From a virus: a stretch of DNA of 27,221 nucleotides. Below, piece by piece: positions 1,071-26,898 of this stretch. The notes under the pieces were generated by a model. It had not been told where the DNA came from. It saw nothing but the letters and a program-made list of their open reading frames with translations, and did not search any database. The DNA lies in the IMG/VR virus record IMGVR_UViG_3300006875_000124, positions 1 to 27,221 of that record, one strand, 5' to 3'. The translations under genes were made by a program, and so were the position numbers. Every line of letters starts with the position of its first letter. Within the stretch, counting starts at the first letter, position 1.

Positions 1071-1529
1071 ATGCCCAAGCCCACTGGCCCACAGTTCTCA
1101 GCGTATGAACAAGAGTTGTTAAACGCCGTTGAGCGTCGCGCAAAAAACCCTGCACCACTAGGGCATGGTAGTCCCGGCGTTTTAGGCCCATTGGATGAGG
1201 ATCAGATCAATAGAACTCAGTCTGGAATTAGAAATTTGTCTGATTTTGGGTACACACTGAAGCATACTGGGCGTCGTGAGTTTGCTGTGGATACTGGTGA
1301 CCCTGATGTCCTTATCTCAGGGGGAGCACACCCCGAGACCGGTGGATTCCAAGTCGATCTGCTCCATTATGGGCGCTATGAAAGTAACGAAGATGGTTCC
1401 TATAAGTACCCCGAGAACTGGGGTACTGTTGGTGCCCACTTGAATGTCAGTGAACATGAACTCCCGACCGCCCTTATGGATTGGATAACCAGCCCTGAGG
1501 TGCAACACCATATGCGGAGACCGTCTTAA
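1071..1529 (+). CDS. Hypothetical phage protein (152 aa)
   Basis: I do not recognise this family. It is a 152-residue soluble protein with no signal peptide or membrane segment and mixed charge. The N-terminal part (residues ~9-25, YEQELLNAVERRAKNP) looks helical; the rest is rich in Gly/Asp/His turns. ATG was chosen for its AGGAG 4 nt upstream. It is the first gene of the accessory block. A 15-bp sequence GATRTAGACCTATTC lies 14-15 nt before its start (1042-1056) and before that of the next gene (1547-1561), suggesting shared control. Function unknown. Confidence 0.8.
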   Translation: MPKPTGPQFSAYEQELLNAVERRAKNPAPLGHGSPGVLGPLDEDQINRTQSGIRNLSDFGYTLKHTGRREFAVDTGDPDVLISGGAHPETGGFQVDLLHYGRYESNEDGSYKYPENWGTVGAHLNVSEHELPTALMDWITSPEVQHHMRRPS

Positions 1530-1561
1530 CTGGCCCACTATTCCACGATGTAGACCTATTC

Positions 1562-1570
1562 TGGTAAAAT
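1562..1570 (+). promoter_or_regulatory. Extended -10 promoter, leaderless start
   Basis: TGGTAAAAT ends 6 nt before the ATG at 1577. No Shine-Dalgarno is present, so transcription would begin at or next to the A of the start codon. The same TGGTAAAAT-N6-ATG arrangement recurs at 2004. Confidence 0.65.
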
Positions 1571-1576
1571 TAACCC

Positions 1577-2002
1577 ATGGTCGCATTTCACCACCTTAAC
1601 GATCAGTTATTCATGCCCGTCAGCACGCTGAAGGAGGCGACCCCTACGGAGGTCACCCATGCGGATGTGGAGAATGCTCGCGGCCATGTGAGGGACGACT
1701 ACACAGGACAGCGACGCCCGAAGACCGTTGAGGACGCCTTCTGGGAGCGCAAGGCTGAGGAGGCGGTTACCAGCGGTGTTTTCCGCAGTATCCAGCGGGA
1801 GGGCATTGTCAACCCAGTTGAGGTGAGCAAGCAGGGACGGTTTATCACGGTACTCAACGGGTACCACCGCATCGCCTCCGCCGACCCCCACGCCTTCGTT
1901 CCCGTGTCGTATAAAGCCTATAACGAGGTAGAGGGCCTACCTGTGCACTACAACCGCGTGGATGAGCGACCACTGCACCCCCGTGACGACGATAACGACT
2001 GA
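1577..2002 (+). CDS. ParB-like (ParB/Srx fold) protein
   Basis: A 141-aa protein with the core of the ParB N-terminal fold: residues 71-83 (SIQREGIVNPVEV) match the family's 'G-hh-x-P-h-x-V' strand, and residues 94-102 (NGYHRIASA) match its conserved NG-x-HR nucleotide-binding box. Stand-alone phage proteins with this fold include nucleases, CTP-binding proteins and unassigned members; there is no helix-turn-helix half here, so plasmid-type partitioning is unlikely. The N-terminus (MVAFHHLNDQLF) loosely fits the tag seen on neighbouring proteins. Start is set by the leaderless promoter 6 nt upstream; no Shine-Dalgarno is visible. The C-terminus is acidic (DDDND). Confidence 0.7.
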   Translation: MVAFHHLNDQLFMPVSTLKEATPTEVTHADVENARGHVRDDYTGQRRPKTVEDAFWERKAEEAVTSGVFRSIQREGIVNPVEVSKQGRFITVLNGYHRIASADPHAFVPVSYKAYNEVEGLPVHYNRVDERPLHPRDDDND

Positions 2003-2003
2003 A

Positions 2004-2012
2004 TGGTAAAAT
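2004..2012 (+). promoter_or_regulatory. Extended -10 promoter, leaderless start
   Basis: TGGTAAAAT overlaps the end of the preceding region and ends 6 nt before the ATG at 2019. A GTGACG 18 bp upstream (1983-1988) is a fair -35 (4/6). No Shine-Dalgarno. Confidence 0.65.
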
Positions 2013-2018
2013 TGACCC

Positions 2019-2549
2019 ATGAGCGCGTCTGAATCACTCCACGATGACCAGTTCATCAACCACCTAAAAGCATTCCAAGAGTCATCTGGCATATCATTGT
2101 ATGGCACGCATTCCGTCATTGGTGGTGTTACTTTACCTACTGTCTCACAGAATCTTGTGATAAAGCCCCATGATACTGGGAATAACTACTATTTTGAATC
2201 CAGAGTGGTTGGTAACGAGGGTAATATCCATCATTTAGGAGCAACAATAAAGGGTAACGAAAGGCACTATTCCTTGTCTGCCCAACGACCGGGGATGAAG
2301 CACCCAGAGTACACAGAAGCAACCGATCCAGATGACTTCTCAAAAGGGTTGCCCCATGCCCTTGCCGCATCTATTGAGTTTCCACCTTCACATAAAAAGC
2401 ATGGCGATTGGATGAGTAGTGCTGATGCCACAGAAGGTACTCTTGAAGAATTACACCGCACAGGGCGGTACGGAAACACAACTGTTAACATCATTGGTAC
2501 TGGTAAGCGGTCTTTAGTGTATGACCCAATCACTAGGAGACATCTGTAA
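2019..2549 (+). CDS. Hypothetical phage protein with N-terminal tag (176 aa)
   Basis: Family not recognised. No membrane segment or signal peptide. The N-terminus MSASESLHDDQFINHL fits the signature shared by several neighbours. The remainder is beta-rich in appearance, with many short hydrophobic stretches separated by Gly/Asn/His. It has its own leaderless promoter, and its TAA overlaps the next gene's ATG by one base, implying co-translation with the Arr-like protein that follows. It might be a partner or immunity factor for that enzyme, but nothing in the sequence proves it. Confidence 0.75.
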   Translation: MSASESLHDDQFINHLKAFQESSGISLYGTHSVIGGVTLPTVSQNLVIKPHDTGNNYYFESRVVGNEGNIHHLGATIKGNERHYSLSAQRPGMKHPEYTEATDPDDFSKGLPHALAASIEFPPSHKKHGDWMSSADATEGTLEELHRTGRYGNTTVNIIGTGKRSLVYDPITRRHL

Positions 2550-2833
2550 TGAGCGCTAAAGACGCGCTTAATCCACGCCTATTCCACGGCTCGCGCCACC
2601 TCCTACAGCCCGGTGACATTCTCCAGAACACCACACCGGGATATGGGACGGACGAATTGCACTCCTTTGCGACGGATAACCCAGAAAACGCCGCTCAGTA
2701 CGGTGGAAGAGTCTACGAGGTCAGTCCGGAGTCACAGATACACAGCGATCCGTATAACGACGATCCTGACTATGGAAATCCGGGCGTTAAAAATTTCAGC
2801 AGTAGCAAATTTGTTATTGTTAAAGAAGTATAA
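2549..2833 (+). CDS. Arr-like ADP-ribosyltransferase (small)
   Basis: A 94-aa protein resembling the rifampin ADP-ribosyltransferase (Arr) fold. Residues 11-24 (LFHGSRHLLQPGDI) match Arr's 'hHGT-x-L-x-x-GD-h' NAD-binding start, with H13 as the conserved His. Residues 40-52 (FATDNPENAAQYG) match the 'FAT-x-x-x-x-A-x-x-YG' helix. VYEVSP (55-60) matches the following core strand. Arr is about 140 aa, so this is a minimal version. ADP-ribosylation of a protein or nucleic acid is expected from the fold, as with the injected ARTs of T4 (Alt, ModA). The target is unknown and rifampin is an unlikely one. The N-terminus (MSAKDALNPR) carries the shared tag. Start overlaps the upstream stop (TAATG). Confidence 0.6.
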   Translation: MSAKDALNPRLFHGSRHLLQPGDILQNTTPGYGTDELHSFATDNPENAAQYGGRVYEVSPESQIHSDPYNDDPDYGNPGVKNFSSSKFVIVKEV

Positions 2834-2857
2834 TTACTGAAAAGTTAAGGAGTACCT

Positions 2858-3166
2858 ATGGACAGACAAGCCTTGAATCCGAATCGTACCGTTGATCGCC
2901 TCAGTCATCGACGCCTCGTTGGCGCAATGATGGCTGATGAAGTTGACGGCCTTAACACATATGTTAATAAACCAGATTACTACAACTACATGCTGGAAAA
3001 CCCCGGGTTAGGGAAGGGAGTGAGCGACGACATTCGTCGTACCATCGCAGATCGTAAGGGTGGAGAGCCCTTTGAAGACTCTGAGGTGACGCGCTCATGG
3101 GCCGGTGACGCATTCCGTAATCGCCGCGCATTGCGCGAAAAGTACGGACATATTGTTAAGTTCTAA
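2858..3166 (+). CDS. Hypothetical ~100-aa paralog A
   Basis: Unrecognised 102-aa protein. It is a clear paralog of the next gene: both begin MD-x-QALNPNR-x-VD, carry a (L/T)-x-GAMMA block near residue 23, a DD/TD-(I/V)RRT-x-x-D block near 58, and end AFRNRR-x-LR-x-KYGHI-x-KF. Charged and probably helical. ATG is supported by AAGGAG (2847-2852) within AAGTTAAGGAG, which is repeated before paralog B. The ALNPNR start echoes the ALNPR of the preceding ART-like protein, linking it to the shared N-terminal signature. Confidence 0.8.
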   Translation: MDRQALNPNRTVDRLSHRRLVGAMMADEVDGLNTYVNKPDYYNYMLENPGLGKGVSDDIRRTIADRKGGEPFEDSEVTRSWAGDAFRNRRALREKYGHIVKF

Positions 3167-3180
3167 GTTAAGGAGAAACA

Positions 3181-3486
3181 ATGGACAGTCAAGCATTGAA
3201 CCCTAACCGCAAGGTTGACTATGGTAAGCATTTGTGGCGCCTTACAGGTGCCATGATGGCTCAGGGTATAGAAAACCTGCATGAGGTGAGCCCCCATGAC
3301 CACAGCGATATGATGGATGATCCTGTGTTCTTTATGAAGGTTGATACTGATGTTCGCCGTACGCGAGAAGACAACATGGGAGGCAGGCCGTATCCCTATT
3401 CTGGACTTGTGCGTGCGGAGGCCGGACGGGCGTTCCGTAATCGTCGTGAGTTGCGGCAAAAGTACGGACATATCGCTAAGTTCTGA
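3181..3486 (+). CDS. Hypothetical ~100-aa paralog B
   Basis: 101-aa tandem paralog of the preceding gene. Ends and the central MGGRP / KGGEP region are conserved while the middle has diverged, so the duplication is old. The same AAGTTAAGGAG ribosome-binding sequence precedes it (3165-3175), showing that the copied unit included the leader. No membrane segment or known motif; function unknown. Confidence 0.8.
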   Translation: MDSQALNPNRKVDYGKHLWRLTGAMMAQGIENLHEVSPHDHSDMMDDPVFFMKVDTDVRRTREDNMGGRPYPYSGLVRAEAGRAFRNRRELRQKYGHIAKF

Positions 3487-3494
3487 TATTGGTG

Positions 3495-3500
3495 TAAAAT
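3495..3500 (+). promoter_or_regulatory. -10 element, leaderless mini-ORF start
   Basis: TAAAAT ends 6 nt before the ATG at 3507, the same spacing as at 1565 and 2007. No convincing -35. Confidence 0.55.
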
Positions 3501-3506
3501 AACACC

Positions 3507-3575
3507 ATGAGTGCACCCGATCATCTCCACGACTACTGGGCAGAGAAGTGGGCCAAGGAGGCTAGCGGTGACTGA
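3507..3575 (+). CDS. 22-aa leaderless mini-ORF, possible leader peptide
   Basis: The ORF begins 6 nt after a TAAAAT element and encodes MSAPDHLHDYWAEKWAKEA plus SGD. Its first seven residues match the MSARDHL start of the ParB-like protein at 9236, so it carries the shared tag. The Shine-Dalgarno AAGGAGG of the next gene (3556-3562) lies inside it, and its stop TGA (3573-3575) overlaps that gene's GTG (3568). It may couple translation, be a tiny tagged protein, or be the remnant of a truncated tagged gene. Confidence 0.5.
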   Translation: MSAPDHLHDYWAEKWAKEASGD

Positions 3576-4350
3576 CTCTTCAAAACCACGCTATACACGA
3601 TATGTGAGTGACGATGGGCTCGTGAGTGGTTATCGTTCCTATCCTGACAATAATAGGGATGCATTACCGTCCGCTTTTCTTATAGTTGAGCATCACCCCG
3701 AGAAAACATACCAAACGGTAATCCATGACGGTACGGACTCTAATCAAAACGTATATCCCTCTATTGATAGAGAGAAGTTTTACCAGCATCCAATGTTTAG
3801 TGACACAACACCTTGGCATGAGTCTGGATTAGTTGATAACCCAACTAATTCCAACGTCCCAGCGCGACCAGCAAGGAAAGACGAACAATTACAGTTGTTT
3901 GGCTACACCCCTGCCCGTCCATCAGTAGTTGACACTCTGATTTCCCGAAAAGGGCTGGGCTCCAGAATGAGCGCCATGACACTTCTTGGTATGGCCGATC
4001 TTCATTCACGCGAAAGATTTGGAACGCCCCTTAAACCATCGGACAACCTATCCGAGCACAGCATGCGTATTGTGCGACATCTAGGCCATCTTGGCGCGAT
4101 CTCAGCCGCAGATGTTCCAGACGATACTCAGAACCGACTGAACTTTTATGCGGCTGAGACTAATCTAAACAACGATGTAACCTACGGAGAACACACTTCT
4201 TCCCATCTTGCAGATGACGTAACGCACGACGCGCCTCGCGCCAAGCGTCATATCTCCAACATTTTGCGCTCTGGCAAGACAAAGACCAAGGCGGAACCTG
4301 AGAAGCCGGAGCAACTATCTATGCCCCTAGAGGGCTGGGACTCTAAGTAG
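3568..4350 (+). CDS. QLxLF paralog family, member 1
   Basis: First of four related genes (3568, 4357, 5220, 7125). The family has a variable N-terminal half with WHESGL-x-DNP, a RPAR-x-x-EQLQLF-x-YTPARP block, a conserved helical domain (GLGSRMSAMTLLGMADLHSR, then a G-x-PL-x-x-S-x-(D/N)LS-x-HSMRIVRHL stretch), a RAKRHI helix, and a C-terminal QL-x-(L/M)-type motif (here EQLSMPLEGW). QLQLF resembles the bacterial sliding-clamp binding pentapeptide QL(S/D)LF. GTG was chosen because AAGGAGG lies 5 nt upstream and homology begins there; an upstream in-frame GTG at 3511 has no such site. Biochemical role unknown. Confidence 0.75.
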   Translation: MTDSSKPRYTRYVSDDGLVSGYRSYPDNNRDALPSAFLIVEHHPEKTYQTVIHDGTDSNQNVYPSIDREKFYQHPMFSDTTPWHESGLVDNPTNSNVPARPARKDEQLQLFGYTPARPSVVDTLISRKGLGSRMSAMTLLGMADLHSRERFGTPLKPSDNLSEHSMRIVRHLGHLGAISAADVPDDTQNRLNFYAAETNLNNDVTYGEHTSSHLADDVTHDAPRAKRHISNILRSGKTKTKAEPEKPEQLSMPLEGWDSK

Positions 4351-4356
4351 GTACTT

Positions 4357-5172
4357 ATGGCTCGTTACTTTATTGATCCTTATCCGGGCGGTATTAGTTA
4401 TTCTTCGTACCTTAGCGATGATCCTGAGGAACGACCCGCGGCCATGTTGAATGTCCACAAGCAGGGGGACAGGACTTATACACACATAAAAACCCCTGAG
4501 CGGATGCGCGATGACAGATTGACTTTAGGCCAACATATGAGCAGTATGATTACGTTTGATAAAGAGTCAATAGATCATATAAATAGTCTTAAAACTGACA
4601 TTCCCGGATTTGTTTCAATACATGAGTCCGGCATGGTGTCAGAATCACCCAGTGTGTCTAATACTCGTCTGCGCCCCGCTCGGGAAAACGAACAACTACA
4701 AATGTTCTATAACTCACCCGAAAGCAACCATAGCGTAGACGCACTGTATTCTCGTGATAATCCGGGGGCCAGAATTAGTGCCATGACAATGCTTGGTATG
4801 GCAGATTTACATTCTCGCGCTCGTACTGGTCAGCCACTAGCACCAAGCACGGACCTCTCACCGCATAGCATGCGGATCGTGCGTCACCTTGCTGACGCAG
4901 GGGTTATTGACCATCCGCAAGACGAAGACGGCTACGATCTAGAGCCTAGTAACAGTATTAACTTTCATAGAGCAACTAATACGCTTAACTCTCTATCTCC
5001 ATTGTCTGACGCCGATAGATACCGTATTGATGTAACCCACCAATCTCGTCAAGCGCGCAGGCATGTCACCAACTTAATGCGCCTAGGGCGTGGGCGCAAA
5101 AACCAGCCTATTTATTCACCAAAGCCAGCGCCAGTTCTTAATGACACTCAATTAAAGTTGTTTGAGGACTGA
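4357..5172 (+). CDS. QLxLF paralog family, member 2
   Basis: 271-aa member beginning MARYFIDPYPGG. It keeps the RPARENEQLQMF block and the conserved domain (GARISAMTMLGMADLHSR, then HSMRIVRHLADAGVI), the ARRHV helix, and ends NDTQLKLFED, a good clamp-binding-type tail. It starts 6 nt after the stop of member 1 with only a weak ribosome-binding site, so it is probably translated by coupling. Its end is followed by a 22-bp sequence (5172-5193) repeated exactly after member 3, evidence that members 2 and 3 arose by tandem duplication. Confidence 0.75.
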   Translation: MARYFIDPYPGGISYSSYLSDDPEERPAAMLNVHKQGDRTYTHIKTPERMRDDRLTLGQHMSSMITFDKESIDHINSLKTDIPGFVSIHESGMVSESPSVSNTRLRPARENEQLQMFYNSPESNHSVDALYSRDNPGARISAMTMLGMADLHSRARTGQPLAPSTDLSPHSMRIVRHLADAGVIDHPQDEDGYDLEPSNSINFHRATNTLNSLSPLSDADRYRIDVTHQSRQARRHVTNLMRLGRGRKNQPIYSPKPAPVLNDTQLKLFED

Positions 5173-5193
5173 CATGGCCGCTAGAAGTAACCT
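5172..5193 (+). repeat. 22-bp direct repeat, copy 1
   Basis: The 22 bp from 5172 are identical to 6014-6035, beyond chance at this window size. Each copy lies just after a QLxLF-family gene and encodes the start MAARSNL. Confidence 0.9.
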
Positions 5194-5203
5194 AATTACA
5201 TAA
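5174..5203 (+). pseudogene. Truncated start (9 codons) of a MAARSNL gene
   Basis: ATG at 5174 encodes MAARSNLIT and then TAA. The first seven codons are identical in DNA to the start of the ART-like gene at 6016. It is most simply the leftover 5' end of a duplicated copy of that gene, cut off when the duplication was resolved. It could still be translated as a leader before the gene at 5220. No Shine-Dalgarno. Confidence 0.5.
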
Positions 5204-5204
5204 A

Positions 5205-5213
5205 TGGTAGAAT
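5205..5213 (+). promoter_or_regulatory. Extended -10 promoter, leaderless start
   Basis: TGGTAGAAT ends 6 nt before the ATG at 5220, repeating the layout at 1562 and 2004 with one base changed in the hexamer. Confidence 0.6.
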
Positions 5214-5219
5214 AAGCAC

Positions 5220-6014
5220 ATGGCCAGAGGTTCCAGAATAACACGGTACACACGACAGTACCACCCCCATGACAATCGGACCACTTATGGTGCTTATCTC
5301 CATGGGCAACCCGATGAACAGCCATCCGCTCTCTTAGATGTTGAGAATCATCCCGGAGTAACGATGCAATCCCAAGTTTTTTCTAGGAAACACCCTAAAC
5401 CCGTTGGTGTCGACATGGCTGACGAAGATGCTTACCGAGATGATCCTCACTGGTTAGTAGAACCTTGGCACGAATCTGGATTAATTGATAATCCTAATGC
5501 TCACATTTGGGATTATGACGGCCCTGATGACGCCCCAATACGCCCAGCGAGGGAAAACGAGCAATTGCAGTTGTTTAGTTATACGCCTGCTCGCCCACCA
5601 AAGGTTGGCCTTTTGGTTTCCAAGGATGGTCTGGGCTCCAGAATGAGCGCCATGACTCTACTTGGTATGGCCGATCTTGATTCTCGCAAAACAACGGGTC
5701 AGCCACTTGAAACATCAGATGACTTATCTCAACACAGCCTGAGAATTGTGAGGCACTTATCGGATTCTGGTGCTATTCCGTCCTTTGAGGTCCCACACCG
5801 GCCTACGAATTACTTTTCCTTTGAAACATCTGATTCTATATTAGGGTCGCGTCCCAACCTTTATACTTCTCAATGGCGTGGTGCAGAAGACGTAACCTAT
5901 AACGCTTCCCGTGCGAAGAGGCATATTGCTCAAATCATGCACCCCGATAAGGAGGAACGCAAGGCGAAGAAAACAGGAGAAAACACCCAACTTACTCTTC
6001 CGGGATTTGAATAA
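5220..6014 (+). CDS. QLxLF paralog family, member 3
   Basis: 264-aa member closest to member 1: PWHESGLIDNP, RPARENEQLQLFSYTPARP, DGLGSRMSAMTLLGMADLDS, then HSLRIVRHL and RAKRHIAQI. It ends NTQLTLPGFE, a QL-x-L-type tail. The N-terminal part (Y-x-x-YLHGQPDEQPSALLDVENHPG) aligns with members 1 and 2 (YRSYPDNNRDALPSAFLIVEHHP in member 1). No transmembrane segment. Start is fixed by the leaderless promoter 6 nt upstream; no Shine-Dalgarno is present. Function unknown; repeated retention of the motif suggests it matters. Confidence 0.75.
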   Translation: MARGSRITRYTRQYHPHDNRTTYGAYLHGQPDEQPSALLDVENHPGVTMQSQVFSRKHPKPVGVDMADEDAYRDDPHWLVEPWHESGLIDNPNAHIWDYDGPDDAPIRPARENEQLQLFSYTPARPPKVGLLVSKDGLGSRMSAMTLLGMADLDSRKTTGQPLETSDDLSQHSLRIVRHLSDSGAIPSFEVPHRPTNYFSFETSDSILGSRPNLYTSQWRGAEDVTYNASRAKRHIAQIMHPDKEERKAKKTGENTQLTLPGFE

Positions 6015-6035
6015 CATGGCCGCTAGAAGTAACCT
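6014..6035 (+). repeat. 22-bp direct repeat, copy 2
   Basis: Identical to 5172-5193; here it forms the first codons of an intact gene. Confidence 0.9.
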
Positions 6036-6534
6036 CCATCAAACTCAGTTCGTGGATTTTTACCACTCATCGTTAGATGACGTTGCACCCCATTTGTCGC
6101 AAATTTCTCCAAAAACATATCTTTTTGGTGGTACCAAGGACTCCGCCCTTGACCGCGCCGAAGCAGACGAAGACCGCGCGTTTATGCACCATTACCGGAT
6201 TCCTCGGCACATGATTCGCTCTGAGGTGTGGGCCGACGATCAACATATCCCTGAACGCCCTTATAGCAATAAGCGTGTCAATGATCTCGCTCCTGACCCG
6301 GGTCCCACACTTTGGGAAACGGTTCCAGTAGACCCCCGAGTAAAGCGGGGTGAGGTACTTCAGTACCGTAACCACCACGAGGACCCGGGGAGTATCTCGT
6401 ACATCATTCACAAACACGATGCTCGCCGTGGTGGGCCCATTGAATACCTTGGTGTTACCCAACTGCATGACCGCCAACCCCAGTGGGAAGAGGAGGATGA
6501 CTCGTATTCGACAACTGGGTTAAACGGGGACTGA
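6016..6534 (+). CDS. ART-like / RES-like phage protein with N-terminal tag
   Basis: 172-aa protein. After the tag MAARSNLHQTQF it has DFYHSSLDDV (14-23), resembling the 'hYH-G/S-T/S' NAD-site start of ADP-ribosyltransferase-like folds. LFGGTKDSALDRA (36-48) resembles the 'F-x-GT-x-x-AA-x-x-R' element. GEVLQYRNHHEDPGSISYII (112-131) is a pattern I associate with phage proteins of this kind. Catalytic residues cannot be confirmed by eye, so this is a fold-level guess. The ATG follows the upstream stop by one base with no Shine-Dalgarno; the in-frame extension upstream is an overlap artefact. C-terminus acidic. Confidence 0.5.
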   Translation: MAARSNLHQTQFVDFYHSSLDDVAPHLSQISPKTYLFGGTKDSALDRAEADEDRAFMHHYRIPRHMIRSEVWADDQHIPERPYSNKRVNDLAPDPGPTLWETVPVDPRVKRGEVLQYRNHHEDPGSISYIIHKHDARRGGPIEYLGVTQLHDRQPQWEEEDDSYSTTGLNGD

Positions 6535-6535
6535 G

Positions 6536-6544
6536 TTATCCACA
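6536..6544 (+). promoter_or_regulatory. Perfect DnaA box at a promoter
   Basis: TTATCCACA, followed by GGC; the 12-mer TTATCCACAGGC also occurs in the opposite orientation at 744-755. The box lies about where the -35 of the TAAACT promoter at 6556 would be, so host DnaA could affect it. Chance occurrence cannot be excluded. Confidence 0.4.
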
Positions 6545-6555
6545 GGCAGTTGTAG

Positions 6556-6561
6556 TAAACT
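6556..6561 (+). promoter_or_regulatory. -10 element before a 17-aa mini-ORF
   Basis: TAAACT ends 5 nt before the ATG at 6567. No clear -35 apart from the overlapping DnaA box. Confidence 0.45.
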
Positions 6562-6566
6562 GCGCC

Positions 6567-6620
6567 ATGTTAGTTAAAAAGCGTAGGAGTAATACTTATG
6601 CCGTCCCGCGAACTCCTTGA
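6567..6620 (+). CDS. 17-aa leaderless mini-ORF overlapping the next gene
   Basis: The ORF encodes MLVKKRRSNTYAVPRTP and is basic. It begins 5 nt after a -10 element, spans the Shine-Dalgarno of the next gene (AGGAG near 6585) and overlaps its first 23 bases in another frame. The layout copies the 3507 mini-ORF: a leaderless short frame running into a gene that has a good ribosome-binding site. A translated leader or a coincidence are both possible. Confidence 0.3.
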   Translation: MLVKKRRSNTYAVPRTP

Positions 6621-7125
6621 CTGGGGAGAAATATCCGATCTTGCAGGTGGTGAAGAGGTGGGCGTCCACCTCCACGCCCCTATGAGTCGTGAAGCGGGAT
6701 TCCCGGTGTACTCTGTTCTTCGGGGTAACAAATCCGTGGGTCAGACCGCTGGTGGAGTTGTGCTAAACCCCAGAATAAATATTAATAAATTTCAGTTTGT
6801 TCAGGCTCTTAATAACCCCACAAGGGCAAAGACCCGCAATACTTTGATCATGGGCACCCCCACTACCGACACACCTTCTGGGGAAGAACAGCCATTGCGT
6901 ATTCGTCTCGGTAAAGTTTCAGTGGGCGATAAAACAGTATTTGAAGTTCCCACAGAACCCGGTGATGTGCGATTGCGAAAAACAGTTCGTGGTAAAACTG
7001 GCCTCGCTGATCCAGCCCCGGGTCTCGTCATTTCTAAAGGGTTCTCCCCAAGATCACATGTTTTTGCCTCAGCAGTGGTTTTTGGTCGTCATGGGGTATC
7101 TGCGGTTGATCCAAGGGAGTTGTAA
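6598..7125 (+). CDS. Hypothetical phage protein with N-terminal tag (175 aa)
   Basis: Unrecognised. The N-terminus MPSRELLDWGEISDLAG aligns with MSARDHLSSQLSDLAG of the ParB-like protein at 9236, sharing R-x-x-L and SDLAG, though the bodies are unrelated. The rest is beta-rich with many Val/Gly/Pro residues and basic stretches (RLGKVSVGDKTVFEV, RLRKTVRGKTG). No membrane segment. AGGAG 8 nt before the ATG supports the start. Its TAA overlaps the next gene's ATG by one base. Confidence 0.75.
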   Translation: MPSRELLDWGEISDLAGGEEVGVHLHAPMSREAGFPVYSVLRGNKSVGQTAGGVVLNPRININKFQFVQALNNPTRAKTRNTLIMGTPTTDTPSGEEQPLRIRLGKVSVGDKTVFEVPTEPGDVRLRKTVRGKTGLADPAPGLVISKGFSPRSHVFASAVVFGRHGVSAVDPREL

Positions 7126-7823
7126 TGCGATATATAAGGAATGCCAAATACGACCGAAAAGGAAAACTCACCATGCTAAGCATGGCGGCTGTTGAGCCGA
7201 CCGTACCGACAGATTCAGTTACCCCACCCCCCGCAGTACAAATCCATTCGCAATTTGAAATGGAACATATGCCCGCCCGCGGTAGCAGGCAAATGGAAAT
7301 CTTTGACTCTCCACCCGGCGCTACTCCCGAGGAGAGCACTGGACGCCTTAATGACCAGTTAGAGCGGTTGAACAGAAAGGTGCCAAAGGGAGGACAGCAA
7401 GTGCTATTTCAGCACGAGCCGGGGATACCCGAGCATTATCAGGTGACTTACTTAGCGGGTAGCCGTATTGGGCGCATACATTCCATGAACTTGCTCGGCA
7501 TCGCCAAGCATATGGCTGACACACAAGGATTACCACTAAAACCGTCCGACGACCTATCCGAGCACAGCATGGGTATGTTAAAGCACATGGCTGATCGTGG
7601 CATTGTTCCTCACTCAGAGGTGTCAACCAAGATAGGTAATGCCTTGGATTTTGACGACGATTATGTGCTCGGTGAGGCAACCCTAAATAATATTTACAAA
7701 GAAGATGTACCTAAGAGCACAATATCCGCAGGGCGTGAGGCACTAAAGAGCGTGCTTAAGAGTTCTCGTCCCCCGCGCAAACCTTCCACGGTTCATCCAG
7801 ATCAGTTATCTTTTGACCTCTGA
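7125..7823 (+). CDS. QLxLF paralog family, member 4 (divergent)
   Basis: 232-aa distant member. The conserved domain is recognisable: AGSRIGRIHSMNLLGIAKHM and PLKPSDDLSEHSMGMLKHM, followed by DRGIVPHSEV. The internal motif is SRQMEIFDSPP, with a second QQVLFQ, and the C-terminus is HPDQLSFDL, so the position of the Q-motifs is kept even where sequence is not. The N-terminal half differs from members 1-3. ATG overlaps the stop of the gene before. The first ~15 residues are basic, and an internal ATG at 7173 is an alternative start. Confidence 0.7.
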   Translation: MRYIRNAKYDRKGKLTMLSMAAVEPTVPTDSVTPPPAVQIHSQFEMEHMPARGSRQMEIFDSPPGATPEESTGRLNDQLERLNRKVPKGGQQVLFQHEPGIPEHYQVTYLAGSRIGRIHSMNLLGIAKHMADTQGLPLKPSDDLSEHSMGMLKHMADRGIVPHSEVSTKIGNALDFDDDYVLGEATLNNIYKEDVPKSTISAGREALKSVLKSSRPPRKPSTVHPDQLSFDL

Positions 7824-7832
7824 CCAGCACTT

Positions 7833-8471
7833 ATGTCGGGTACTCGTATACATCATTTTTACCATTTGTACGCAGATGGTAATTGGCAATTATGCGTACC
7901 TGACCATATACGAGCGCTGGTTAACTACGGGCTTTACGAGAACCTAGCCTCTCTAAATATCGGCTTTGTCGGTAACTCTACGAACATTGTTTTGGCACAG
8001 GAGTATCTTGCTCTCCATGGTCTTACTTACAATGTCGCCGCTACTGCACCGGGCGGGTGGGAGCAAGTAACTCTTGATCCACTCTACGAGATGGCAGTAC
8101 AAGACCCTGACGCATATTACGTCTACGCCCACACCAAAGGTGCGGCTAATTTTGCCCCGGTTAATGATATTTGGCGTAACGGAATGACCAGAGTCAACAT
8201 CGTGGACTGGCAACGAGCCGTACAGGTGTTGGATGAGGGGTACACCACGGCTGGGTGTCATTACTACACGATTAACCCTGATAATCCCAATCCCTTTTGG
8301 GGAGGAAACTTTTGGTGGGCCACTGGTAAGCACATCAGCATGCTGGGTATCTGCGAGAAAGATTACCGCCATCGGGCTGAGGCATGGGTGGGTAAAATCA
8401 ACAATGACCCGTTCTATAAGCCCTACGACCTGTGGCCTGTAGGAATCGGCACGATACCTCAACCGTTCTGA
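7833..8471 (+). CDS. Glycosyltransferase-like protein
   Basis: 212-aa protein with features I associate with a family of phage and bacterial glycosyltransferase-like proteins: YVYAHTKGA (96-104), an aromatic-rich GGNFWWATGKH (157-167) and RAEAWVG (181-187). There is no DXD motif I can point to and no membrane segment. It might glycosylate DNA, virion protein or a surface polymer; the neighbouring methyltransferase does not resolve this. Its end overlaps the oppositely transcribed methyltransferase by 13 bp. The ATG lacks a clear Shine-Dalgarno; reading by coupling from the gene ending 9 nt upstream is likely. Confidence 0.55.
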   Translation: MSGTRIHHFYHLYADGNWQLCVPDHIRALVNYGLYENLASLNIGFVGNSTNIVLAQEYLALHGLTYNVAATAPGGWEQVTLDPLYEMAVQDPDAYYVYAHTKGAANFAPVNDIWRNGMTRVNIVDWQRAVQVLDEGYTTAGCHYYTINPDNPNPFWGGNFWWATGKHISMLGICEKDYRHRAEAWVGKINNDPFYKPYDLWPVGIGTIPQPF

Positions 8472-8971
8472 CTTAGGTTTACTGCCTCTGCATACAGGTC
8501 ACCGTGGTTTCGATCAATGATCAGATCACGGCATTCCCAATTAGTTTCCGTTAAAGCAAGTGCTAGGTCTAATGGGTCCACGTTGCCATAAAACTCATCC
8601 TCGGGCATTCCCGGTGTTCCGTAGGCGGAGTGCGGGTACCTTGGATCAGTGGCGCAAGTAATCAGAAGCACCCCCTGATATTTGATCGCCTTACCCAGAA
8701 CTTGTAAAACTTTACGATAATCAACAGGGGATATGTGCTCAAACATCTCAGTGCAGAGTCCCATGTCCCAAAGCCGGTCTGGATTCCAAGTAGTTGCGTC
8801 CGCAACTATATCCACGCCCTCGCCACCGATGTGGTCTAAGGCCGTATAAGGAGCATCAGGCCAAAGGTCACGAGGGCTACCGTTGATGTTCCGGCCCCCG
8901 ATATCCAAAATGCTGGTGGGGTGTAGTTCTTTGGATTTAAGTGTTAAAAAGTCCCAAGCCTCAGTATGCAT
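8459..8971 (-). CDS. SAM-dependent methyltransferase (class I)
   Basis: 170-aa protein on the minus strand, the only minus-strand gene I accept. SILDIGGRNINGSP (20-33) is the SAM-binding glycine loop (motif I). DHIGGEGVDIVADATTW (46-62) covers the acidic strand-2 region and motif II. GLCTEMFEHI (71-80) matches the 'h-x-x-E-V-h-EH' post-II element, and VLLITC (101-106) the following strand. Methyl acceptor unknown; small phage members act on sugars, nucleobases or small molecules. The start at 8971 is chosen because TATACT lies exactly 6 nt upstream; ATG at 8977 abuts that hexamer. A longer N-terminal reading would run antisense through the next gene and is rejected. Confidence 0.7.
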   Translation of the reverse strand: MHTEAWDFLTLKSKELHPTSILDIGGRNINGSPRDLWPDAPYTALDHIGGEGVDIVADATTWNPDRLWDMGLCTEMFEHISPVDYRKVLQVLGKAIKYQGVLLITCATDPRYPHSAYGTPGMPEDEFYGNVDPLDLALALTETNWECRDLIIDRNHGDLYAEAVNLSQNG

Positions 8972-8977
8972 GGTCAT

Positions 8978-8985
8978 AGTATAAT
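8978..8985. promoter_or_regulatory. Overlapping divergent -10 elements
   Basis: AGTATAAT gives TATAAT on the + strand (8980-8985), 8 nt before ATG 8994, and TATACT on the - strand (8983-8978), 6 nt before ATG 8971. The two hexamers share four base pairs, a symmetry known to drive bidirectional transcription in bacteria. Both genes would be leaderless. Confidence 0.6.
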
Positions 8986-8993
8986 TGCACTTT

Positions 8994-9239
8994 ATGAACG
9001 ATATTACAAATCTCAAAGCAATTAGCATGCGGATTCTGGCAGTATTTGCCGCCTCCGCCCTTGGTGTGGTTGGCGCAGGAGCCATCGCGGGGGTACCATT
9101 GTGGAAAGCCTGCCTCATGGCGGGAATCGGCGGTATGTCCACAGTTATTGAAGGACTTGCGCGGGCATACATTGATGATGGTAAGTTAGACGCTGGAGAG
9201 ATCAACGCAGTATTCGACAAAATTGAGAAGCAGAATTGA
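8994..9239 (+). CDS. Small membrane protein, holin-like candidate
   Basis: 81 aa. Two closely spaced hydrophobic segments (about residues 12-35 and 37-55: RILAVFAASALGVVGAGAIAG and LWKACLMAGIGGMSTVIEG) are followed by an acidic tail with DDGKLDAGEINAVFDKI, which resembles an EF-hand-like loop-helix. Small two-helix proteins with a D-G-K-L-(T/D)-x-x-E-I tail occur in phages and are often annotated as holins. It is not near the endolysin here, so the lysis role is uncertain. ATG follows the TATAAT by 8 nt; no Shine-Dalgarno. Confidence 0.65.
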   Translation: MNDITNLKAISMRILAVFAASALGVVGAGAIAGVPLWKACLMAGIGGMSTVIEGLARAYIDDGKLDAGEINAVFDKIEKQN

Positions 9240-9814
9240 GCGCACGAGATCACCTATCAAGTCAACTGTCTGACCTCGCCGGTATGGCGTACCCCGTGAT
9301 TCGTCCGGGGGTCACCAAGGCGTACGGTAGCCGTGACCCCGGCACTGTCTTTGGTCGCTGGACCGAGACTGACCCTGCAAAGATCGAACAGTACAAGAAA
9401 TATTTGGAAACCAACCCAAGGGCCGCGGCTAGTGGGCTGACTCTAGAAAAGTTGACATCGGGCTATCACCCCGTTGGGTCTGTCCCGTGGGAGAAGACCG
9501 ATAGGTATGCTCCCTACGACAAGGAACTTGTCGGCCATGTCTTGAATCAAGACAACACCCCCGAGACTGTTCGGGACTTCGACCCCCGTGCTCTCCACGC
9601 CAACCAGCCGTCACTTGTGTCACCTCATTTCTTGCACTACTTTGAGGGCAAGGAAGGGCTGGCTTCGGACAAGGATCAGCGTGGAAATGCAATGCCGTTC
9701 GTGTATATTCAGAAGTCCACCGGAATACACCGAATCTTGGCAGGACACCACCGCGCCGCGGCGGCACTTGTCAAGGGGGAACCACTACGGGCAAGATTTG
9801 CCATTGGAGAATAA
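9236..9814 (+). CDS. ParB-like protein 2 with N-terminal tag
   Basis: 192-aa protein with the ParB/Srx fold at its C-terminal end: DPRALHANQPSLVSPHFLHYF (116-136) followed by RILAGHHRAAAAL (166-178), the G-HHR box. The N-terminal ~110 residues are extra and unassigned. The TTG start (overlapping the upstream TGA) is supported by the tag MSARDHLSSQLSDLAG, which matches starts of other genes nearby. It is not a close relative of the ParB-like protein at 1577. No helix-turn-helix domain, so a stand-alone nuclease or CTPase-type activity is more likely than partitioning. Confidence 0.65.
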   Translation: MSARDHLSSQLSDLAGMAYPVIRPGVTKAYGSRDPGTVFGRWTETDPAKIEQYKKYLETNPRAAASGLTLEKLTSGYHPVGSVPWEKTDRYAPYDKELVGHVLNQDNTPETVRDFDPRALHANQPSLVSPHFLHYFEGKEGLASDKDQRGNAMPFVYIQKSTGIHRILAGHHRAAAALVKGEPLRARFAIGE

Positions 9815-10782: not shown

Positions 10783-10856
10783 ACCGGGTGGTGCGTCTGG
10801 TTGACGCAAGGTGTCTTATATACACTCGTAGACGGGTTCAATTCCCGTACCCGGTA
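10783..10856 (+). tRNA. tRNA-Ile (anticodon UAU)
   Basis: A full cloverleaf can be drawn. Acceptor ACCGGGT (10783-10789) pairs with ACCCGGT (10849-10855), discriminator A10856. D-stem TGCG/CGCA (10792-10795, 10805-10808) encloses a GG-containing loop. Anticodon stem GGTGT/ACACT (10810-10814, 10822-10826, one G-U) carries loop CTTATAT with anticodon TAT (10817-10819) and A37. The variable loop is 5 nt. T-stem ACGGG/CCCGT (10832-10836, 10844-10848) holds loop TTCAATT. No CCA is encoded. It decodes AUA directly, whereas most bacteria use a CAU tRNA with lysidine. It would supply a codon rare in many actinobacteria. Confidence 0.93.
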
Positions 10857-10860
10857 CTGA

Positions 10861-25066: not shown

Positions 25067-25510
25067 ATGTACGGCACCGAGAACTTCTCGGTGACTTACC
25101 CGAAACCCATCAGCGCCATCGGGGAGTCCCCGCAACTATCGTCCTACGCGGAGATGGCGAGCCGCTTCGCCCGTGTACGGAGTGGCTTGGGTGGTCAGAC
25201 AGAGCGTTCGTATATCAGTAACACCGCCGTTCCGAGCCCGTTTGTCCCCAGCCCCCTTGGGGGCAAGCGGGCATTGTTGGAGCCACGAAAGTTGGAGGGC
25301 ATGGGTGAGTTTGTTCTTGACCCCATGCAGAACTTCAAGCCCGAAAAACTGGACTTGGAGGGTTACAAATACGGTGGCGTGCACATGCCAGTGGCTCCAA
25401 ATAAAGCCACTGGAGCCAGTATTCGGCGTAAGGGCATCAGCGCGTATAAGCGCCAGCAGGCAGGCAAAAACCCAAGCCAACCCCCCAAGCAACGAAAAAA
25501 GGCATACTGA
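25067..25510 (+). CDS. Hypothetical basic protein (147 aa)
   Basis: Starts two bases after the previous stop, likely by coupling. Low in secondary-structure signals, with many Pro/Ser, and a very basic C-terminus (SIRRKGISAYKRQQAGKNPS, then QPPKQRKKAY), suggesting DNA or capsid-interior contact. Not recognised. TGA overlaps the next ATG. Confidence 0.7.
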   Translation: MYGTENFSVTYPKPISAIGESPQLSSYAEMASRFARVRSGLGGQTERSYISNTAVPSPFVPSPLGGKRALLEPRKLEGMGEFVLDPMQNFKPEKLDLEGYKYGGVHMPVAPNKATGASIRRKGISAYKRQQAGKNPSQPPKQRKKAY

Positions 25511-26898
25511 TGGCTAAAAAAGAAACAGCGCCGAAGACTCCTAAGAAAAAAGGAGCAACTCCAAAAAGGGTTGCTTCTGAGGGCGACAGCCTTGCCGATC
25601 CCGGGTATCCCTTGCCTAAAAGGGCTCTCTCATACCGTGATTTTGATGAGGCGGACAGACCACTACTTGATACTGCGATGGAAGAAGCCGGAACTCGTGC
25701 GTATGGGTCACCAATACGCATGGCAGACGCGGTAGCCACACGGGTAAACGCGGTTCAAGCGGCCATTGGGCGTATGGCCTCCGGGTCGTATGTTCCTGAA
25801 GGAGCGCTTTGGTACGGCGAACATCAGAGGGGATACCGTCAAGTTGCTAACAGAACTGGCACTCGCATTGGAAGCATTATTGATGCTGGGGCTATTGCCA
25901 GTGCCCGTAACACGCCTGATAAAGAGCGACTAGCCGCTGAATCAGCGGGTCATATTGCCGCTAATCCTGATCGTATGGTAACAATTACACCTGACATGGT
26001 CCCCCACATGGGTAACTCAGACATAACTGCAAAAGATTACCGCATCGGTGATCTAACGGACACTGACGTTGCCTACATTGGGTACGCAGAAACACAAGCA
26101 CTTAAATCCCGTGGGTTAGTGGATAAGCAAGGTAACGCCCTTGCTTCTGAGCGGTTTACTCCGCGAGAAGTTACTGGTGTTACATTGGATTCAGCAGGCC
26201 GCGAACACGCCATTAAGGCTGTCGCTGTCACTCGCGGAAAAACATTTGATGAAGTTACTAAAGGATCAACTCCTAAAACTCGTAACTATGCTCGCGCAGG
26301 ACATATCGCCAGTGATCCTGAGGACAGGTACAACATTGAGGTATTCCGAAGGATGGCTCAAACACCTACGTTTATAGAACCCGATGGAAGAGGTGGCCAC
26401 ACCACATTCCGTCAGGGTCATCTATGGACAGCGGCTGATGAAACGGGTTTTGACCCAAGTACCGCAGTGGGTGCTGACGAAAGCGTTGAAGACTATGTGA
26501 TGAACGCGATGACGGCACATGAAGCCGCGTCTCGTGGAACCACTGGTAGGAAGGCCAGAGCGGCACAGGAAGACGTAAAAGTAACAAAAGGAGGGCCCGG
26601 TGTGTTTGACCCGTCAGTTGATCCTGACGAGATTAGGCATGCTTTTAACGAAGAAGCCACGCGGCGAGCCGCCGCACACTTTGGTCTTCATGGGGAAAGC
26701 ATTACCCCACGAGCCGCTCAAGCCATTGCTTGGACAGAGTACCGTCGGCACACTCTTGGCGAAGATGATGAATATAATAGACAACAAAAAGAACTTGCTA
26801 AAGAAGCAAAAGCAGTAAAGTCAACTACTCCTGTCGCGGGGCCTGCGCCAGTCACACACCCCACCCCTGAGGAAAAAGGACAACTCACGCTTTTCTAA
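25510..26898 (+). CDS. Conserved phage protein, DUF7178-like, with QLTLF end
   Basis: 462 aa. The N-terminal ~25 residues are Lys-rich. Later blocks, TPKTRNYARAGHIASDPEDR and ESITPRAAQAIAWTEYRR (the latter near residues 405-422), resemble actinophage proteins placed in DUF7178, with a 'KVR-x-F-x-x-N-I-x-D' and an 'ITP-x-x-x-QA-I-x-W' signature; I am moderately sure. It ends EEKGQLTLF, the same QLxLF type seen in the four-member family at 3568-7823. Enzymatic activity unknown; position next to the terminase suggests a packaging-time or virion role. Confidence 0.6.
   Translation: MAKKETAPKTPKKKGATPKRVASEGDSLADPGYPLPKRALSYRDFDEADRPLLDTAMEEAGTRAYGSPIRMADAVATRVNAVQAAIGRMASGSYVPEGALWYGEHQRGYRQVANRTGTRIGSIIDAGAIASARNTPDKERLAAESAGHIAANPDRMVTITPDMVPHMGNSDITAKDYRIGDLTDTDVAYIGYAETQALKSRGLVDKQGNALASERFTPREVTGVTLDSAGREHAIKAVAVTRGKTFDEVTKGSTPKTRNYARAGHIASDPEDRYNIEVFRRMAQTPTFIEPDGRGGHTTFRQGHLWTAADETGFDPSTAVGADESVEDYVMNAMTAHEAASRGTTGRKARAAQEDVKVTKGGPGVFDPSVDPDEIRHAFNEEATRRAAAHFGLHGESITPRAAQAIAWTEYRRHTLGEDDEYNRQQKELAKEAKAVKSTTPVAGPAPVTHPTPEEKGQLTLF

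Follow-up and report, generated by a model that had tools for sequence, protein, structure and literature searches.

A short peptide shared by dissimilar effector-like proteins of actinophages, a candidate virion-loading signal

Introduction

Encapsulin cargo-loading peptides are short hydrophobic linear motifs that bring diverse cargo inside an HK97-type shell. Bacteriophage T4 packages an ADP-ribosyltransferase (ART), Alt. The internal proteins of T4 are diverse and share only a capsid targeting sequence (CTS; PMC3012670), and they are packaged and later injected (PMC9391042). Here we describe a short peptide, the tag, at one end of otherwise dissimilar proteins encoded by a 27.2-kb fragment of viral DNA (IMG/VR record IMGVR_UViG_3300006875_000124, positions 1 to 27,221, the whole of which we call the window) and by its relatives, and we think it probable that this tag acts as a short linear targeting signal by which injected effectors are loaded into the prohead or virion.

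The tag is like the T4 CTS in being a short peptide common to otherwise dissimilar, highly diverse small proteins of a T4-type contractile-tail phage, and in that it would direct the loading of host-directed proteins that are then injected (PMC3012670, PMC9391042). It differs from the CTS in that it occurs at either terminus and on many body families with enzyme-like folds, and in that processing by a protease is unsupported, there being no protease gene between the portal, scaffold and capsid genes of two genomes, although one elsewhere is possible. We liken the two by their putative function, claim no sequence homology and do not class the tag as a CTS. As with Alt, an ART is a candidate injected effector, but the ARTs described here have small one-domain Arr-like or MbcT-like folds that share a tag, and again no sequence relation is claimed. 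The capture mechanism of encapsulin cargo peptides would also fit the tag; however, there is no encapsulin here, the motif is different, and direct binding of the tag to the capsid protein is hypothetical.

The terminase of the window shares 46% identity with its counterpart in Streptomyces phage BRock, whose group (BRock, LuckySocke, GiJojo and pSt2308) contains the nearest cultured phages by this measure, and 76-99% with the terminases of numerous metagenomic contigs. The relatives encode a tail sheath and are thus contractile-tail phages. The tag-bearing viruses are T4-type actinophages of one family infecting aquatic and soil Actinobacteria, into which every placeable tagged record falls. 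All tagged records are metagenomic, several genomes of relatives were inspected whole, and start codons were picked from reading frame and context and not from annotation. BLAST searches of 50,697 phage records with the window DNA or the tagged proteins found no tagged relatives, Pfam and PHROGs searches of the window genes gave little besides weak ART and ParB-like matches, PADLOC reported nothing, and no description of the motif was found in the library of papers searched.

A common peptide on proteins of the window

Five genes of the window, on the + strand as are all genes and tags given below for it, start with the 12-residue tag (genes are named by their first position, and related genomes and contigs by G and L numbers). 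The tag MVAFHHLNDQLF (1577..1612) opens a ParB-like protein of 141 aa (1577..2002), and MSASESLHDDQF (2019..2054) opens a 176-aa protein (2019..2549) whose body has no family recognised in domain and relative searches and for which these searches found no relatives. The tag MSAKDALNPRLF (2549..2584), the start of which overlaps the stop of the 2019 gene, opens an Arr-like ART of 94 aa (2549..2833); MAARSNLHQTQF (6016..6051), with the counterpart MAARSKLHQTQF in G002, opens an ART-like protein of 172 aa (6016..6534); and MSARDHLSSQLS (9236..9271), which has a TTG start, opens a second ParB-like protein, of 192 aa (9236..9814). A related spelling, MPKPTGPQF, begins a 152-aa protein with an unassigned body (1071..1529), and recurs on other bodies as MPRPTGPQF (L239), MPIPDGPQF (L237) and MATPNGPQF (L187), of which those in L239 and L237 are ART-like.

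The common N-terminus noticed in a preliminary description of the window is real: all of the strings that it quoted are present at those starts, and their similarity exceeds that in every control trial. With homologous pairs left out, the ten best pairwise similarities between the N-terminal 12-mers of 34 genes total 174. Shuffled N-termini give 124 +/- 13 and internal 12-mers 129 +/- 13, and none of 1000 trials reaches 174 in either control. The membership has nevertheless changed. The 1577 protein had been regarded as a looser fit, wrongly, as MVAFHHLNDQLF ranks among the best members. Conversely, 2858 (2858..3166) and 3181 (3181..3486), listed as loose members, are untagged full-length paralogs (50% identity over 103 aa) that make up a separate small family, and 6598 (6598..7125) is also untagged, its N-terminus aligning within the body of proteins homologous to it (MIDWSELTD...), which begin MVQKLNMIDWSELTD... 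and MGQKLNMIDWSELTD.... At 3507 the tag stands but the protein does not, since this is a 22-codon open reading frame (ORF), MSAPDHLHDYWAEKWAKEASGD (3507..3572), that has a promoter-like TGTAAAAT just 5' of it and overlaps the 3568 gene at its start. We add 1071 and a second orphan tag, the 9-codon remnant MAARSNLIT (5174..5203), which matches the start of 6016 over 27 nt at 93% identity. The bodies were said to be unrelated, which holds for most of them but not for 1577 and 9236, both ParB-like; whole-length homology is absent save in this pair and in 2858/3181.

A second test used genomes collected solely through their terminase or 5220 protein, which replaced a contig set that had been picked partly via the tag and was dropped from the statistics. 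Within residues 1-18 the motif [LMI][NSGH]x(1,2)QF is present in 6.9 body clusters, compared with 1.2 per internal 18-mer, or 11.2 compared with 1.8 when alternative starts are permitted; it was partly informed by an early look at some of these relatives. Refinement of the regular expressions drew on the very data in which the diversity of the tag is seen (the first was too strict, missed most family members and was then loosened), and the window-only N-terminus test and that on terminase-selected genomes are the least affected by this tuning. Two short motifs in core proteins, LGQF in the portal protein and GLRPQQF in a helicase-like protein, were not counted as copies of the tag and were taken as residues of the fold.

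Comparison of homologs indicates what is being conserved. Of the first 14 residues of the 1577 protein, 13 are shared with its homologs in G003 and G004 although 5-7 codons have changed synonymously, the remainder of the protein being 43-51% identical, and between G003 and G004 all 14 tag residues are the same notwithstanding 8 synonymous changes. The 2549 tag is identical to MAAKDALNKDLFHG of G004 at 11 of 14 residues and the body at 31%. Over codons 2-8 of all pairs of tagged genes in L244 there are 50 synonymous and 49 non-synonymous differences. Because tag residues are kept despite synonymous changes and diverged bodies, selection acts on the peptide, and, judging by these codons, neither chance, recent duplication nor a DNA-level signal would account for the conserved tag.

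The tag in related phages

In relatives the tag stands before or after more than 20 unrelated body families, including ART-like, ParB-like and GNAT. Twenty-six tags give the 12-residue N-terminal consensus M-[AS]-A-x-[DE]-H-[LI]-[NHS]-x-x-[QL]-[FLH], with MTLNPxQF, HMSxQF and xLGPQF among the other spellings (MAAKDHLNPEQF is an N-terminal example and HLGPQF a C-terminal one). Among 2.9 million viral contigs, a scan for DNA encoding M-T-[LF]-N-P-x-Q-F returned 44. In about 20 of these the tag opens what is plausibly a gene, a dozen bodies being represented, and several others are chance-like. An ART-like alignment search and a scan for M-A-A-x-D-H-L-N added cassettes, the latter with chance matches among them. 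The L244 contig has seven tagged genes within 4.3 kb with five unrelated bodies. Three of the genes encode GNAT-like paralogs and two encode ART-like proteins from different families; the others encode a 94-aa protein and one whose Cys/His spacing, judged by eye only, is transglutaminase-like. With the first 14 residues cut off, no similarity is left between most pairs of bodies in L240, L244 and the window.

The family of the 6016 ART-like protein is informative as the tag is retained in every member found. Each of 21 homologs has one tag, N-terminal in 10 and C-terminal in 11 (spelled V-[KR]-[HY]-L-G-[PV]-Q-F or [LI]-S-[ST]-Q-Q-F), with none at both ends or at neither. In a tree the N- and C-tagged proteins form two clades with one exception, so that the tag changed ends only once or twice, and on this ground we rejected treating the 21 proteins as independent events. 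C-terminal HMGPQF or HLNRTQF is also found in some members of the 5220 protein family. In ten giant disordered proteins totalling 9869 aa, [LM][GS]x(1,2)QF occurs in 12 copies compared with 0.21 expected; three of these copies lie at the very C-terminus, and in two of the giants the last 11 residues are the sole stretch in common.

The earlier proposal of a common short tag on dissimilar effector-like proteins is strongly supported, and the motif, sought at protein starts in relatives, is clearly present there. Its description as N-terminal is correct for one form and incomplete, as a C-terminal form exists too.

The giants (987-1663 aa) occupy one syntenic place and several are mutually dissimilar (L109:12236-16384, L200:1385-4348, L202:16032-19220 and L113:14937-19928). 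A tagged protein of a more distant relative (L220:5066-5938; MTLNPTQFGKVGG) has a glycine-rich stretch and a LysM domain and lies beside tail genes.

Predicted folds and genomic context

An ART fold is predicted for two tagged proteins of the window. The 2549 protein matches Pfam Arr-ms (E 2.2e-4, under the curated gathering cut-off), and for a model of the 6016 protein (mean pLDDT 70) the best Foldseek match is MbcT (probability 0.96), followed by PARP/Arr. A ParB/Noc N-terminal domain fold is predicted for the 1577 protein, from a PHROG ParB-like match (E 0.02), a Noc profile from the PDB (E 0.019) and a model (pLDDT 75) that matches Noc/ParB/PadC in Foldseek, with probabilities reaching 0.99 and E-values no better than 0.036. 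As all Foldseek E-values for both models are above 0.001, these are fold-level assignments of moderate support, and at that level the ART-like and ParB-like folds first proposed for the bodies are borne out by Pfam and Foldseek. Such folds suggest effector functions. Residues 1-7 are disordered in both models. The ParB-like family was not found in BRock, LuckySocke or pSt2308.

The bodies vary and are rapidly exchanged, as seen in the orphan tags at 3507 and 5174 and in G002, the terminase of which is 99% identical to that of the window, where the same junction holds, in place of 9236, an unrelated tagged ART-like gene beginning MPAYEYINKDQVLFHGT (Pfam PARP, E 1e-4). In distant relatives tagged genes are found within the portal-scaffold-capsid operon, overlapping or flanking the portal gene (L254, L260, L265, L282 and L284; the portals of the first four are 54-59% identical). 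The portal start is overlapped by a tagged ParB-like gene in L260 (TGATG), by a tagged ART in L254 (GTGA) and by a tagged gene in L265 (ATGA), where a tagged ART also overlaps the portal stop (TGATG) and sits between the portal and scaffold genes; in T4 the portal-scaffold interval holds head-core genes. In L284 the portal gene is followed by a truncated tagged ART. In the window the tagged 9236 gene overlaps a gene for a holin-like membrane protein (8994..9239; PHROG holin, E 1e-4, although phrog_26427, labelled nuclease, matches better). The sole match to this protein in the phage collection, the metagenome-assembled phage DSL-LC01, has no tag in its first 40 kb. Late, assembly-linked expression is indicated by the overlaps of tagged genes with portal genes of the head operon and with the holin-like gene, and the genomic context favours the loading of tagged proteins into heads.

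Discussion

A loading signal to which a head-assembly protein binds is the best fit because the peptide is conserved by itself, stands at either end, is carried by exchangeable bodies that look host-directed, and is found in the portal-scaffold-capsid operon of relatives. We propose that tagged effectors are produced late and would be captured by the prohead through the tag, which a head-assembly component (scaffold, portal or the capsid interior) would recognise. The tagged proteins would then reside in the virion and leave the capsid together with the DNA on ejection, and in the next host their putative ADP-ribosylation, ParB-like and acetyltransferase-like activities would probably counter host defences or serve take-over. 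The tag is modular, placed at either end and swapped among bodies in a fast-changing locus, and it is probably uncleaved as no protease gene was found between the portal, scaffold and capsid genes of two genomes. A partner encoded by the phage is favoured over one from the host because the placeable tagged records are confined to one phage family.

Several points weigh against this proposal. Placement of the tag in the ART-like family has changed only one or two times, and in the 1577 and 6016 models its Q-[LF] enters the first beta strand of the body, so that part of their similarity may be structural. Within the window's own clade the majority of tagged genes form a separate cassette away from the portal gene, and the cultured relatives BRock and LuckySocke are without the cassette and have only one AMG[AS]QF-motif protein each. 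We found no virion proteomics of these uncultured phages.

An alternative is that the tag docks proteins on a common partner in the infected cell, of phage or host origin, such as a replication, membrane or lysis complex, with no packaging. Short, disordered peptides at either end of a protein are what docking motifs look like, and the cassettes often also hold QLxLF-like motifs (EQLQMF, C-terminal QLKLF and QLTLF), which we take to resemble sliding-clamp-binding peptides. However, the overlaps with portal and holin-like genes suggest late expression, and late effectors would be of little use before lysis, so we regard docking without packaging as rather unlikely.

It is improbable that the motif is instead the cleavage site of a maturation protease, its role being removal of the tag and not binding. 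The title of Mullaney and Black 1996, as cited in PMC9391042, states that the T4 CTS permits proteolytic processing, and the giants have internal copies of the motif. Nevertheless, in two genomes of the window clade the portal, scaffold and capsid genes follow one another without a separate protease gene among them, and no capsid propeptide is obvious, and in several proteins the motif forms the final few residues, where a cut would remove almost nothing.

Still less credible is an element acting in DNA or mRNA, in which similar 5' ends aid leaderless initiation or act as points of gene exchange. An extended -10-like element does lie just 5' of the starts at 1577, 2019 and 5220, and the 27-nt repeat shared by 5174 and 6016 indicates that tag DNA can be duplicated, but the peptide stays constant through synonymous differences in the 1577 homologs and in L244, and a C-terminal tag cannot act on initiation. 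Descent of the tagged proteins from one ancestor with the N-terminus best preserved, as the 2858/3181 paralogs and the two ParB-like proteins might suggest, is refuted for the family as a whole by the differing folds (ART-like, ParB-like and GNAT), by bodies dissimilar beyond the first 14 residues and by the change of ends inside one ART-like family, and is the least probable of all.

To return to loading into the head, a broader proposition seems to us evenly poised: that this family of Actinobacteria phages possesses a terminus-independent, uncleaved loading signal of 8-12 residues, unrelated to that of T4, which would turn any protein into injected cargo; its users would be the giant disordered proteins and a large effector pool in rapid exchange, with ART-like, ParB-like, acetyltransferase-like and other members. 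If loading through the tag is right, every tagged gene of these aquatic and soil phages is a candidate injected effector, even where it has no recognisable domain; the tag would be a second, independent case beyond T4 of addressed cargo loading in the head of a tailed phage, and would offer a short portable signal for placing chosen proteins into actinophage particles.

Further features of the window and its relatives

Extended -10-like elements (TGGTAAAAT/TGTAAAAT) lie directly before starts at window positions 1560-1577, 2002-2019, 3490-3507 and 5204-5220. Such an element near a start codon is expected of leaderless transcripts in Actinobacteria, and by leaderless-promoter spacing the cassette genes are not distinguishable from structural genes. 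The QLxLF-like motifs of the window are on tandem paralogs and on a variable terminase-adjacent protein (3568-6014, 7125-7823 and 25510-26898), as internal EQLQLF/EQLQMF and as C-terminal QLKLF, QLTLPGF, QLSFDL and QLTLF. A cassette protein of L187 (L187:7188-8126) combines QLxLF motifs with a weak match to an M91 effector metallopeptidase (E 0.006).

Two other shared starts are present in these phages. One, approximately [DHN]P-x-R-[KRQ]-[VT]-x-R and spelled HDPARKVGR, HHPARKVGR, NDPARKVDR or HPNRQVGR, is N-terminal on several different small proteins (L171:1178-2733, L112:6058-6609 and L265:5352-5863, the last between the terminase and portal genes). The other, MAFN[LIV]xxIxGRN, begins small proteins of several body clusters that adjoin the giant disordered proteins (L109:17522-18407, L200:5168-6614 and L202:13769-14760). 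Downstream of the cassette, the window has a tRNA-Ile with the anticodon TAT (10783-10857).

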